DNA from: Methanobrevibacter sp.
GTDB taxonomy: Archaea; Methanobacteriota; Methanobacteria; Methanobacteriales; Methanobacteriaceae
Assembly: GCF_017468685.1 (NCBI RefSeq)
Contig: NZ_JAFUHT010000075.1
Location: 1-38,659 of the forward strand
Reading direction: 5' to 3'
DNA length: 38,659 bases
Position 1 is the stretch's first letter, and each line of letters starts with the position of its first letter. Below the pieces are notes generated by a model. It saw only the letters and a program-made list of their open reading frames with translations, did no database searches and was not told the DNA's origin. Positions 29,159 through 38,659 of this stretch are shown here, in pieces. A program made the translations under genes and the position numbers.

Positions 29159-29947
29159 GTGGAAAAATTAGATGACATTATTGTTTCAAGAGCAATCATT
29201 GAAGAATTCATGAATGATTTTCTAGACTACACAGATATTGATGTAGCTATTGGTGGAGGAGGTCCATCAGGAATTACTGCCGGATATTACCTGGCTAAAG
29301 CAGGATATAAGGTAGCATTGTTTGAAAGAAAACTCTCCATAGGCGGAGGAATGTGGGGAGGAGGAATGATGTTTAACAAAGTTGTTGTCCAGGAGGAAGG
29401 TCGAAGAATCCTTGATGAATTTGGAATCAACTACAAAAAATATCAGGACAATTATTATGTTGTAGACTCCATCGAGTGCACCTCAACACTTACATCTAAA
29501 GCTACTCAAGCTGGCCTTAAAGTGTTTAATCTCATGTCAATTGAGGATTTAATGGTACGTGAAAATGGAATTAACGGAGTAGTGCTCAACTGGAGTTCAG
29601 TTGAAATGAGTGGTCTACATATAGACCCACTTACAGTTAGATCCAAAGCAGTTATTGATGCTACAGGACACCCATTAGAGATTATCAAAATCGTACAGGA
29701 CAAAATGGAAGAAGACTTAAACACAAAAACAGGTAAAATCATGGGTGAGAAATCAATGTGGGCAGACCGTGCTGAAGGCAAGATTCTTGATAACGTTAAT
29801 GAAGTATATCCTGGATTATATGTAACCGGTATGGCTGCTAATGCAGTTCATGGATCACAACGTATGGGACCAATCTTTGGCGGAATGCTGCTCTCTGGTG
29901 AGTATGTAGCCAAAAAGGTTGCTGAAGATTTGGAAAACAGAAAATAA
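29159..29947 (+). CDS. thi4: Sulfide-dependent thiazole synthase, Thi4 family
   Basis: 262 residues from GTG 29159; the overlapping ATG at 29157 is closed after four codons. FAD/NAD-type Rossmann motif [19 protein letters not shown] at 31-49 and [13 protein letters not shown]. Yeast Thi4 has a sacrificial Cys; here the aligned place is His154 (SGLHIDP). This is the hallmark of methanogen enzymes that use free sulfide and turn over repeatedly. It makes the ADP-thiazole precursor of thiamine from NAD, glycine and sulfide, with Fe(II). The family is often mislabelled ribose-1,5-bisphosphate isomerase. Transcribed alone. Confidence 0.92.
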
Positions 29948-29950
29948 TTT

Positions 29951-30058
29951 TACCTAAAACACCATCACCAATTTTTAGGTATACCTAAAAAAATGCAAAG
30001 CTTTATATACTATGACAACAAACTATTAAGTAGAGATGAAATTTAGGATTACCTAAAT
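29951..30058. promoter_or_regulatory. Cluster of TTTAGG-N4-CCTAAA operator-like sites around a promoter
   Basis: A perfect 20-base palindrome, TTTTTAGGTATACCTAAAAA, lies at 29972-29991. A second copy of the same arms, ATTTAGG-ATTA-CCTAAAT, lies at 30041-30058. A half-site TACCTAAAA is at 29951-29959. Between the two full sites is TTTATATA (30002-30009), whose predicted start of transcription is near 30032. One full site is thus just upstream of the promoter and one just at or after the start. The arms recall DtxR/IdeR-type metal-regulator boxes (TTAGG...CCTAA). The regulator is unknown. Confidence 0.7.
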
Positions 30059-30243
30059 CTCTACATTATTAGTCAAATAATAATACTCTCCAAAATTAGA
30101 AATGTGTTGAATTAGTTTTCTCACAATTTTACTAATTTAATACAAGTCGTTCGGAAAATTAAAAAAATCTGCCAAAAAAATAATTTTCCTCAATTCGGGT
30201 GTTTAAACTAGTCACTTAAACACCATATTATCTCTCTTTTTTT
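30031..30243 (+). ncRNA. Candidate structured small RNA or attenuated leader
   Basis: From the predicted start near 30031 there are four hairpins in a row. The first is 30031-30063 (outer TAGAGA/TCTCTA, inner TTTAGG/CCTAAA, 12 pairs with a five-base bulge). The second is 30110-30116 with 30131-30137 (7 pairs). The third is GGAAAATTA 30153-30161 with TAATTTTCC 30181-30189. The fourth is GGTGTTTAA 30198-30206 with TTAAACACC 30216-30224. Seven T follow at 30237-30243, as at a terminator. No open frame longer than a few codons exists. It could be a separate RNA of about 210 bases or the leader of the marR gene at 30294. AT-rich sequence gives chance hairpins, so expression is unproven. Confidence 0.5.
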
Positions 30244-30293
30244 ATCCGCAAATTTTTAATACTCTAAAAATAATTATTAATTGTGGTGATATT

Positions 30294-30740
30294 ATGGACG
30301 ATTGGGAAAATGACAGAATTCTACTTACTCCAACCAATCTTTATATGGAATACATCTTATTAAGTTACAATAATTTTTTAAGACAAAAATTGGATGATGT
30401 TAAAATTACCTATGGAGAATTGACTTACATTTATAACATTAAATTCTTTCCTTCAATCTCACAAAGAAAGCTTGCCGAGACATTATTTGTATCTGAAGCG
30501 AATGTTGCAAAAATGGTCAAGAAATTAGTTGAAAAGGGTTTGGTTGAAAAGCAAAAGGACAAAGCAAATAAAAGTCGCAATATATTAAAGTTGACTGAAA
30601 AAGGAGAAGAGGTTTTTGTTAAAATTAATGTCATTACATGCGGTTGGGAAAGAAATATCACCAAAAACATGTCAAATGAAGAATATTTTAAATTTAAGCA
30701 AACATTGTATGAGATTACAAAGGAATCAACCGATTTGTAA
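30294..30740 (+). CDS. MarR-family transcriptional regulator
   Basis: 148 residues. Winged helix-turn-helix at about 45-105: SQRKLAETLFVSEANVAKMVKKLVEKGLVEKQ, then a wing with KSRNILKLTEKGEEVF. Helices at both ends make the dimer. It contains only one Cys (in ITCGWERN), which could sense redox state. GGTGAT site before ATG 30294. It lies 85 bases upstream of a glutathione peroxidase gene with an inverted repeat at its start site, so it most likely regulates the peroxidase and thioredoxin reductase genes. Confidence 0.9.
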   Translation: MDDWENDRILLTPTNLYMEYILLSYNNFLRQKLDDVKITYGELTYIYNIKFFPSISQRKLAETLFVSEANVAKMVKKLVEKGLVEKQKDKANKSRNILKLTEKGEEVFVKINVITCGWERNITKNMSNEEYFKFKQTLYEITKESTDL

Positions 30741-30750
30741 TTAGGCAATG

Positions 30751-30800
30751 TTTATATACTTCATTAATTAAAATATTTAATAAGTCTTAACTTAGTTAAG
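30751..30800 (+). promoter_or_regulatory. Promoter and inverted repeat of the peroxidase gene
   Basis: TATA box TTTATATA at 30751-30758. The expected start of transcription is near 30781. CTTAACT-T-AGTTAAG, with seven-base arms, lies at 30786-30800, just past that point. This is a good site for repression by the MarR protein encoded immediately upstream. Ribosome site AGAGGTG follows. Confidence 0.65.
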
Positions 30801-30825
30801 TCTTTAAAAACAGAGGTGAAAAACA

Positions 30826-31365
30826 ATGTCAATTTATGATTTTGAAGTAAAAGACAGTGACGGAAACACAGTTTCCTTATCCGAATTTAAAGACAAAGTA
30901 CTTTTAATCGTTAACTCAGCAACAGAATGTGGATTCACCCCACAATACACTGAATTAAATGAAATTTATAATGAATTCAAAGACGAAGGATTTGAAATTC
31001 TTGATTTCCCATGCAACCAATTCGGTGATCAGGCACCCGGAACAACCGAAGAAATCAAAGAAGTATGCCGCAACAAATGGTTAGTACCATACTCCATATT
31101 TGATAAAATTGATGTAAACGGTGAAAATGCAGATCCTTTATTTGAATACTTGAAAAACGAACAACCATTTACCGAAATCAAAGGTAAAGGAGCAACCGCT
31201 TTAAAGTTAATGTTAAGAAAAAAAGACAAACATTACAAAGACAACAATGACATCAAATGGAACTTTACCAAGTTTTTAGTTGACCGCAAAGGAAATGTTG
31301 TTCGCAGATTCGAACCAACTGAAGACTTGGGTGACGTTAAGGATGCAGTTAAAGATTTAATCTAA
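30826..31365 (+). CDS. Glutathione peroxidase family, thioredoxin-dependent type
   Basis: 179 residues. Peroxidatic Cys35 in TECGFTPQY (Cys, not selenocysteine), Gln69 in FGDQAPG, and Trp145-Asn146 in KWNFTKF complete the catalytic tetrad. Cys63 in FPCNQ is the usual structural Cys. Cys81 in EEIKEVCRNKW matches the resolving Cys of thioredoxin-using members. Methanogens of this group lack glutathione, and the next gene is a thioredoxin reductase. It is therefore best read as a thioredoxin-dependent peroxidase that removes H2O2 or organic peroxides in the cytoplasm. Confidence 0.93.
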   Translation: MSIYDFEVKDSDGNTVSLSEFKDKVLLIVNSATECGFTPQYTELNEIYNEFKDEGFEILDFPCNQFGDQAPGTTEEIKEVCRNKWLVPYSIFDKIDVNGENADPLFEYLKNEQPFTEIKGKGATALKLMLRKKDKHYKDNNDIKWNFTKFLVDRKGNVVRRFEPTEDLGDVKDAVKDLI

Positions 31366-31384
31366 TTAAATCTTATCTTTTTTT
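31352..31384 (+). terminator. Hairpin and T-run between peroxidase and thioredoxin reductase genes
   Basis: Ten-base-pair stem AAGATTTAAT (31352-31361) with ATTAAATCTT (31365-31374); the peroxidase stop codon lies in the loop. Seven T follow (31378-31384). The next gene starts eleven bases later with no promoter between, so this would act as a partial terminator that lowers the second gene relative to the first. Confidence 0.6.
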
Positions 31385-31395
31385 AGGTGTGAAAA

Positions 31396-32307
31396 ATGGA
31401 AAAATATGACATTATCATCATCGGAGCAGGACCCGGAGGTCTGACTGCAGCAATATATGCCGGCCGTCAGGGTACTAAAAATCTGATTATAGACCGTGAC
31501 CTTGCAGGAGGAATCGGGCGTGAAGTGCCTGAAATGGAAAACTATCCTGGATTTGAAAACATTTCAGGACTGGAATTAATTGAAAAAATGAAAGTGCAGG
31601 CTACAAAGAATACTGAGCTTCATGAAATGGAAAACGTTCTGGAAATTACAAAAAACGATGATGAATACCGCTTTACAGTTAAAACAGATAAAGCAGAGTA
31701 TCTCTCAAAAACAGTTATTCTTGCAACAGGAAGCTCACACAGACACTTGAATGCAAAAGGAGAAGATGTTTTTGCAGGAAAAGGTGTCAGTTACTGTGCA
31801 ACTTGTGACGGATTTTTCTTCCAGGGCCGTGACATCATCATGGTCGGTGGAGGAAACAGCGCACTTCAGGAAGCATTATACCTAAACAATTTAGGCGCTA
31901 ACGTTACACTCATCCATAGAAGAGATGAATTCAGAGCCCAAAAACACTTGCAAAATCAGATTAAAGAAGCCGGAATTAAAACTATACTTAATGCAACTGT
32001 TGAAGAAATAAAAGGTGAAATGCTTGTTGAATCAGTTACATTAAAAGACACCAAGACTGGTGAACTTACAGACTTGCCGATTAATGGAGTATTCATTAGT
32101 GTAGGATACATTCCACATACCGAACTTGCACAGCAACTTGGTGTCGAATTGGACGAATCAGGACACATCATAATCGACAAAAATCAAAAAACCAATGTTG
32201 ACTATGTTTATGCAATCGGTGATGTTTGTATTGGATTAAAGCAATGGGTTGTTGCATGCGGTGAAGGTGCAGTGGCTGCAACTTCCGCATATCATGACAT
32301 AAGCTAA
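31396..32307 (+). CDS. trxB: Thioredoxin reductase
   Basis: 303 residues, flavoprotein. FAD motif IIGAGPGGLTAAIYAG at the start, redox pair Cys134 and Cys137 in CATCDGFF, pyridine-nucleotide motif GGGNSALQEA, and IHRRDEFRA. The HRR...R pattern is that of NADPH-binding enzymes. Some methanogen reductases use F420 instead and lack it, so NADPH is favoured here. C-terminal FAD motif YAIGDVC. AGGTG site before ATG 31396. It pairs with the peroxidase upstream. Confidence 0.92.
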   Translation: MEKYDIIIIGAGPGGLTAAIYAGRQGTKNLIIDRDLAGGIGREVPEMENYPGFENISGLELIEKMKVQATKNTELHEMENVLEITKNDDEYRFTVKTDKAEYLSKTVILATGSSHRHLNAKGEDVFAGKGVSYCATCDGFFFQGRDIIMVGGGNSALQEALYLNNLGANVTLIHRRDEFRAQKHLQNQIKEAGIKTILNATVEEIKGEMLVESVTLKDTKTGELTDLPINGVFISVGYIPHTELAQQLGVELDESGHIIIDKNQKTNVDYVYAIGDVCIGLKQWVVACGEGAVAATSAYHDIS

Positions 32308-38510: not shown

Positions 38511-38545
38511 GTTAAAATAAGTAAGTAATAATTGTAATAGAGAAA

Positions 38546-38659
<114 letters not shown>

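Follow-up and report, generated by a model that had tools for sequence, protein, structure and literature searches.

What occupies the interval between the thi4 gene (ending at 29947) and a marR-like gene (starting at 30294) in the stretch of Methanobrevibacter sp. DNA analysed here (38,659 nucleotides, the window)? We find that it holds a predicted RNA element (Table 1). The earlier note on this DNA had described a pair of exact operator sites, a TATA box, a half-site, serial hairpins and a T-run, and all of these lie where it had placed them. The two exact TTTAGG-N4-CCTAAA boxes stand 68 bp apart and are the only ones in the 38.7 kb, compared with none in 100 dinucleotide shuffles; when two mismatches were allowed, the window contained five sites, which is near chance (mean 3.1), so that only the exact form of the box is informative. 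Folding of the predicted transcript (30030-30250) gave −46.3 kcal/mol vs −25.2 ± 3.5 kcal/mol for shuffled sequences (z −6.1), and the predicted structure comprises five hairpins: H1, which holds box 2, a small AT-rich one, H2, H3 and the terminal stem H4. In agreement with the note's remark that no protein frame is present, no conserved reading frame was seen across copies of the element, and a peptide-coding RNA was rejected because other copies lack the short ATG frame that H1 has in the window. As to the surroundings, a glutathione peroxidase gene and a thioredoxin-reductase-like gene come after the marR-like gene, and the three may form a redox cluster (30294-32307); the window ends with a 5S rRNA gene on the minus strand (38545-38659).

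Table 1 Operator, promoter and predicted RNA features of the thi4–marR interval, in window positions
Feature	Position	Strand	Remarks
Half-site CCTAAAA	29953-29959		
Operator box 1, TTTAGGTATACCTAAA	29974-29989		Exact TTTAGG-N4-CCTAAA; 5' of the TATA box
Archaeal TATA box TTTATATA (promoter of the RNA)	30002-30009	+	Read in the sequence
Small RNA, ~214 nt	30030-30243	+	Ends inferred, the 5' one from the spacing to TATA and the 3' one from the T-run
Hairpin 1 (H1), outer stem GUAGAGAU/AUCUCUAC	30030-30064	+	Box 2 at the tip
Operator box 2, TTTAGGATTACCTAAA	30042-30057		Exact site; doubles as inner stem of H1
Small AT hairpin AUUAUUA-GUCAAA-UAAUAAU	30065-30084	+	Predicted in most copies, weak energies
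Conserved unpaired segment UCUCCAAAAUUA	30087-30098	+	Proposed seed (anti-Shine-Dalgarno)
Hairpin 2 (H2), loop holds CACAAUUU	30104-30143	+	Covariation, pairs changed on both sides
Hairpin 3 (H3)	30153-30189	+	Unpaired CUGCC loop at 30169-30173
Hairpin 4 (H4), GGUGUUUAA/UUAAACACC, with T-run	30198-30243	+	Terminator; covariation
T-run	30237-30243	+	

Is the element peculiar to this locus? A blastn search with the 346-bp region matched all 25 same-genus genomes tested, mostly several times each, and returned just two short, marginal matches from genomes outside the genus. From 36 copies we built an alignment (A1) and a covariance model (R1), against which the window copy scores 157.5 bits. R1 has matches in 64 of 67 Methanobrevibacter genomes and in 37 of the 37 of good quality, usually with one to six copies per genome among the matches listed. 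Among 60 genomes sampled from the order, it was present in all 19 members of the genus and in none of the 41 others, 29 of which belong to the same family. An exact double-box search across 85,000 species gave 80 loci, 78 of them in Methanobrevibacter and two in haloarchaea, and R1 is present at 66 of the 80. No Rfam family matched at the gathering score, and Rfam searches at E up to 5 gave chance matches only, far below threshold. On comparative grounds, we regard the existence of the RNA family as close to certain: the element is a previously unnamed, multi-copy predicted small RNA that occurs genus-wide in Methanobrevibacter.

Both promoter and fold recur from copy to copy. Of 81 copies, 72 have an exact box 1 and 77 a box 1 with no more than one mismatch; for box 2 the figures are 63 and 72. 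The boxes are spaced 67–72 bp apart, and in 78 copies the TATA motif starts 25–27 bases ahead of the R1 model start. All 80 copies tested had a fold z below −3 (median −5.2). The outer stem of hairpin 1 covaries, with model position 8 being U-A 36 times, A-U 20 times, U-G 15 times and C-G twice (pairs taken from single-copy folds), and its variants have changed in step (GUAGAG/CUCUAC, AAGUGA/UCACUU and AGUGAUGU/ACAUUGCU). The earlier note had suggested that one sequence could serve as both DNA operator and RNA fold. The first part of this idea stands, inasmuch as box 2 forms the tip of hairpin 1; the second does not, because box 2 is missing from nine copies and most of these keep the outer stem, so that box 2 is an operator hosted by hairpin 1 and not needed for it. 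The downstream copies of one tandem array (L052) likewise lack box 2 and keep hairpin 1. In the small hairpin, one group of copies has an alternative AUUAGU/ACUAAU pairing. Covariation in two stems of the model, H2 and H4, exceeded that in all 500 shuffles and in all slid versions for two overlapping sets of copies; the covariation check that the note had proposed came out in favour of the stems, with the reservation that fitting the alignments to the model works in the model's favour.

Between the small AT hairpin and hairpin 2, the copies share the unpaired segment UCUCCAAAA, with UCUCCRAA in 67 of 80; its mean unpaired probability is 0.85 vs 0.48 for the whole RNA. The corresponding mean for the CUGCC loop is 0.96 (70 copies), and the loop of hairpin 4 carries CUCC in roughly one in three of the other copies (22/59). 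The window's genome contains a divergent fourth copy (L042:4756-4979, that is G000:C50:12812-13028; 39.8 bits), which has both boxes and an altered body without UCUCCAAAA.

What might the RNA pair with? The best-conserved of its unpaired segments, AUCUCCAAAAU, has the reverse complement AATTTTGGAGAT, and the complementarity of the seed to leaders spans 11–13 nt, Shine-Dalgarno included. In the window's genome, perfect seed matches ahead of start codons include those of fdhA, fwdF, fwdB, hypC and a NifU-like gene, and a slightly shorter match lies at an Mrp/NUBPL gene. The pattern AATTTTGGAGA-N(2-11)-ATG occurs 80 times in 21 genus genomes, against 11 times for the reversed pattern, and 62 of the 78 seed-complement matches read were gene-like starts, compared with 7 of 31 for a control that kept TTGGAGA and permuted the four upstream bases. 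This control seed, TATATTGGAGA, retains seven bases of complementarity and so cannot count as a clean negative; its matches still included hypC together with a rubrerythrin and a NifB-like gene. Counted by genome, the matched families were FwdF (21 of 21), NifU-like (10), HypC (9), FdhA (6) and FwdB (3), the NifU-like, HypC and FdhA matches thus recurring in merely 6–10 of the 21. Each of these is an iron-sulfur or hydrogenase-maturation protein, and no further gene family recurs in two or more of the 21 genomes among the seed-complement matches. Identities were assigned by Pfam and NCBIfam, partly by eye for FwdB, and the genomes share ancestry, so that the counts are not independent events.

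We also examined 660 leaders, a 35% sample of one closed genome. The 11-mer occurred in two of them (hypC and a biotin-ligase-like gene), and predicted duplexes as strong as those for fdhA, hypC, fwdF and fwdB were found for 0–0.2%. Within this sample from one genome, genes with iron-sulfur motifs did not pair more strongly as a class (p 0.17), and the case for targets therefore rests on specific recurring genes. Even among these, the conservation at fwdF is partly explained otherwise, because the site shares bases with the end of the preceding coding sequence and leaders outside the genus, which read ATTTTGGAGG, are nearly as complementary (−12.6 to −15.2 vs −15.5 to −18.6 kcal/mol within the genus); for the latter reason, we do not count the co-distribution of the fwdF site and the RNA as decisive. 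In one genus without the sRNA, fwdB leaders carry the same 11-mer, and GGAGA is present in four of them. Start-region complementarity to iron-protein mRNAs is recurrent and specific (fwdF, NifU-like, hypC, fdhA and fwdB), yet confounded for fwdF and fwdB. Better evidence for the putative targets comes from several unrelated iron-related families that share the extended complement, together with a second RNA, described below, that carries the same seed.

These confounders bear on the question of whether a DtxR-regulated RNA might have a different main partner, either because it binds Shine-Dalgarno sequences at large through its C-rich unpaired segments or because it sequesters a protein, the match to iron genes then reflecting no more than a shared leader style. 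The UCUCC and CUCUCCUC loops do resemble the 16S anti-Shine-Dalgarno, and both the absence of a class-wide bias among the 660 leaders and the similarity of fwdF and fwdB leaders in genera without the RNA are compatible with such broad binding. It is harder to reconcile with complementarity that reaches 6–7 bases 5' of the Shine-Dalgarno and with the iron-related nature of all families recurring in at least two genomes. We consider a different main partner unlikely, while not dismissing it, and prefer selective pairing with the leaders of iron-related genes.

As to the regulator, the window's genome encodes one DtxR-family (PF02742) protein, of 240 aa. Aligned to IdeR (1fx7), it keeps the H-x3-C-x2-E-H iron-site residues (VHEQACEMEH vs VHAEACRWEH). 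The dtxR gene itself has a box with one mismatch ~50 bp 5' of its start, followed by a TATA-like sequence, and boxes lie within 350 bp of feoB in all 12 feoB loci read, in eight of them nearer to feoB than the sRNA's own pair. The genome holds 15 exact boxes where well below one is expected, so that the genome-wide count proposed in the earlier note also speaks for the motif, its version with one or two mismatches being near background. Seven of the 15 belong to copies of the RNA, which would make the RNA a main output of the DtxR regulon. The N4 spacing of the box arms differs from that of the classical DtxR/IdeR box, which has 19 bp with N9 between TTAGG and CCTAA. Elsewhere among methanogens, DtxR and FeoB of Methanococcus voltae respond together to the iron source (PMC8516115). 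We rate control of the RNA by DtxR as likely; binding of DtxR to the boxes is inferred.

The same system could in principle sense manganese or another metal in place of iron, given that the best NCBIfam matches of the regulator are MntR models, all of them below cut-offs. The regulator nevertheless has, as IdeR does, a cysteine in an iron-type site, a residue with a role in iron rather than manganese selectivity, and both the boxes at 12 of 12 feoB loci and the iron-related target candidates point the same way, which leaves another metal improbable. Iron thus remains the signal that we favour.

Exact boxes were also observed, with gene names assigned by eye, upstream of the fwd operon (L044, G000:C12:13136), between hcgG-like and hmd genes (L049, G000:C54:65274), upstream of a heavy-metal P-type ATPase (L046, G000:C45:3943) and upstream of argG (L043, G000:C83:34778); the link of hmd to a box would fit iron sparing via hydrogenase exchange. 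In the haloarchaea Haloarcula pellucida and Halomicroarcula rubra (L378:7042-7128 and L411:6260-6344), two to four TTTAGG-N4-CCTAAA boxes precede an operon that begins with a diaminobutyrate-aminotransferase-like frame and, as read by eye, is probably for siderophore synthesis.

Is the RNA made on its own account? Its copies lie between genes, either alone or as arrays of two to four, and in both orientations, whether adjoining feoB, near type-II-secretion-like genes, in the gatE–marR interval or elsewhere; these varied contexts and orientations indicate that the copies are independent transcription units. One closed genome carries copies at 563839-564085 and 564160-564380, and tandem arrays of three to four are found at L053:3978-5126, L052:3351-4335 and L103:12279-12725. 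The earlier note had offered an attenuated marR leader as an alternative, and in the window marR does start 51 bases past the T-run on the same strand, as a cis-acting 5' leader would require. That reading fails elsewhere: marR adjoins only some copies, others have different neighbours and often lie on the opposite strand, the RNA in L056 is directed away from marR, and tandem arrays of two to four copies occur. The copy orientations refute a cis-acting marR leader as a general explanation, and we give it next to no credence. No more tenable is the view of the element as a repeat dispersed in the DNA or a cluster of operators, serving as decoy sites or forming a mobile element, with an incidental RNA fold. 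Such a view would account for elements that are multi-copy, palindromic and at times in tandem arrays, but not for compensatory stem changes, conserved unpaired segments, the conserved TATA spacing and T-run, or recurring syntenic loci such as the one flanking feoB.

We therefore return to an independently transcribed, DtxR-controlled RNA, for which the following mechanism can be proposed. When iron is plentiful, an Fe(II)-loaded repressor of the DtxR/IdeR type would sit on both boxes around the TATA box and keep the RNA gene off, and the same repressor would also control feoB and dtxR itself. When iron is short, the repressor would leave and the ~214-nt RNA would be made. Its unpaired AUCUCCAAAAU would then pair with the Shine-Dalgarno sequences of mRNAs for FwdF and FwdB (formylmethanofuran dehydrogenase), FdhA (formate dehydrogenase), HypC (hydrogenase maturation) and the NifU-like and Mrp iron-sulfur carriers, and this pairing would lower translation of iron-rich proteins and so spare iron. 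The first of the earlier note's two proposals, a regulated RNA of about 210 nt under a DtxR-type operator with a link to iron sparing, finds support in genus-wide conservation, covariation, the operator at dtxR and feoB, and seed complementarity to leaders of iron-sulfur enzymes. Sequence comparison supports the RNA family, its structure, the operator architecture, the presence of the regulator and the complementarity. That the RNA is a DtxR-repressed, trans-acting iron-sparing sRNA acting by Shine-Dalgarno pairing is in our judgement probable; transcription, iron response, pairing and repression are all inferred.

The genus also contains a second structured RNA of ~400 nt that cannot be aligned with the first. 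It has the same double-box/TATA promoter and was seen in a further group of Methanobrevibacter, among whose records is one of M. olleyae (L358, L359, L368, L371, L372, L374, L392, L396, L397, L409, L413 and L431), often in tandem pairs 480–580 bp apart, and it carries GCAATCTCCAAA, CTTCCTCCC and CTGCC elements. Its fold z is about −4 to −5 (mononucleotide shuffles), and AAUCUCCAAA is present in 11 of 18 copies vs roughly 5% of stretches drawn at random from these loci. The broadest claim that we would make, and one that we favour only by a modest degree when taken as a whole, is that Methanobrevibacter, when short of iron, holds back the iron-rich enzymes at the entry to methanogenesis (Fwd, formate dehydrogenase and hydrogenase maturation) by means of a multi-copy family of anti-Shine-Dalgarno RNAs under DtxR control. 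Because at least two unalignable architectures share the double-box promoter and the AAUCUCCAAA seed, such RNAs may have originated in archaea separately from their bacterial counterparts and, inside the genus, have undergone replacement or rebuilding.

In bacteria, the control of iron-sparing RNAs by a repressor is textbook knowledge; Fur is the repressor of RyhB, PrrF1/2 and FsrA, and PrrF is duplicated. The logic would be the same, namely a repressor-controlled RNA that lowers the synthesis of iron proteins; these RNAs differ in being bacterial and in their use of Hfq (RyhB and PrrF) or FbpABC (FsrA), and no homology to them was seen. The C-rich motif of FsrA acts on Shine-Dalgarno sequences (comparison in PMC9410917). 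Among methanogen RNAs, sRNA162 of Methanosarcina mazei (PMC3510493) is likewise a trans-acting sRNA, but it has no known tie to iron or DtxR, comes from another archaeal order and showed no similarity. A review of archaeal sRNAs mentions iron solely for antisense RNAs in Pyrobaculum (PMC5867862), and our literature search found no archaeal iron sRNA and no Methanobrevibacter sRNA of relevance. In Mycobacterium tuberculosis, the iron-sparing sRNA MrsI has an IdeR site in its promoter and targets that include the hydrogenase maturation gene hypF (PMC8628891); it resembles the Methanobrevibacter RNA in the promoter site for a DtxR-family regulator and in a (here putative) hydrogenase maturation target, and differs in being bacterial, a single gene of about 100 nt with a six-base seed, and unrelated in sequence.

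The closest functional analogue would be IsrR of Staphylococcus aureus, which is repressed by Fur via two boxes and uses C-rich unpaired regions for Shine-Dalgarno pairing, with fdhA among its targets (PMC9410917). Two repressor boxes at the promoter, C-rich anti-Shine-Dalgarno regions, iron sparing and even the target name fdhA would be common to both. IsrR is bacterial, is controlled by Fur and has an experimentally shown function, whereas that of the Methanobrevibacter RNA has not been shown; Rfam gave no sequence similarity between them, and the Methanobrevibacter RNA stands apart in having several copies per genome and one operator within its first hairpin. Methanobrevibacter species are the dominant methanogens of gut and rumen, and the RNA is directly testable in culturable ones; if the proposal is true, it would give a regulatory point of entry into how the main methane producers of the human gut and of ruminants use iron. 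By analogy, what is shared with the bacterial iron-sparing RNAs is the logic, and what differs is the domain, the use of the regulator, the sequence and the copy number. The RNA would then be an archaeal counterpart of RyhB and IsrR, and its two repressor boxes, C-rich seed and fdhA target, as in IsrR, would represent a case of convergence across domains.
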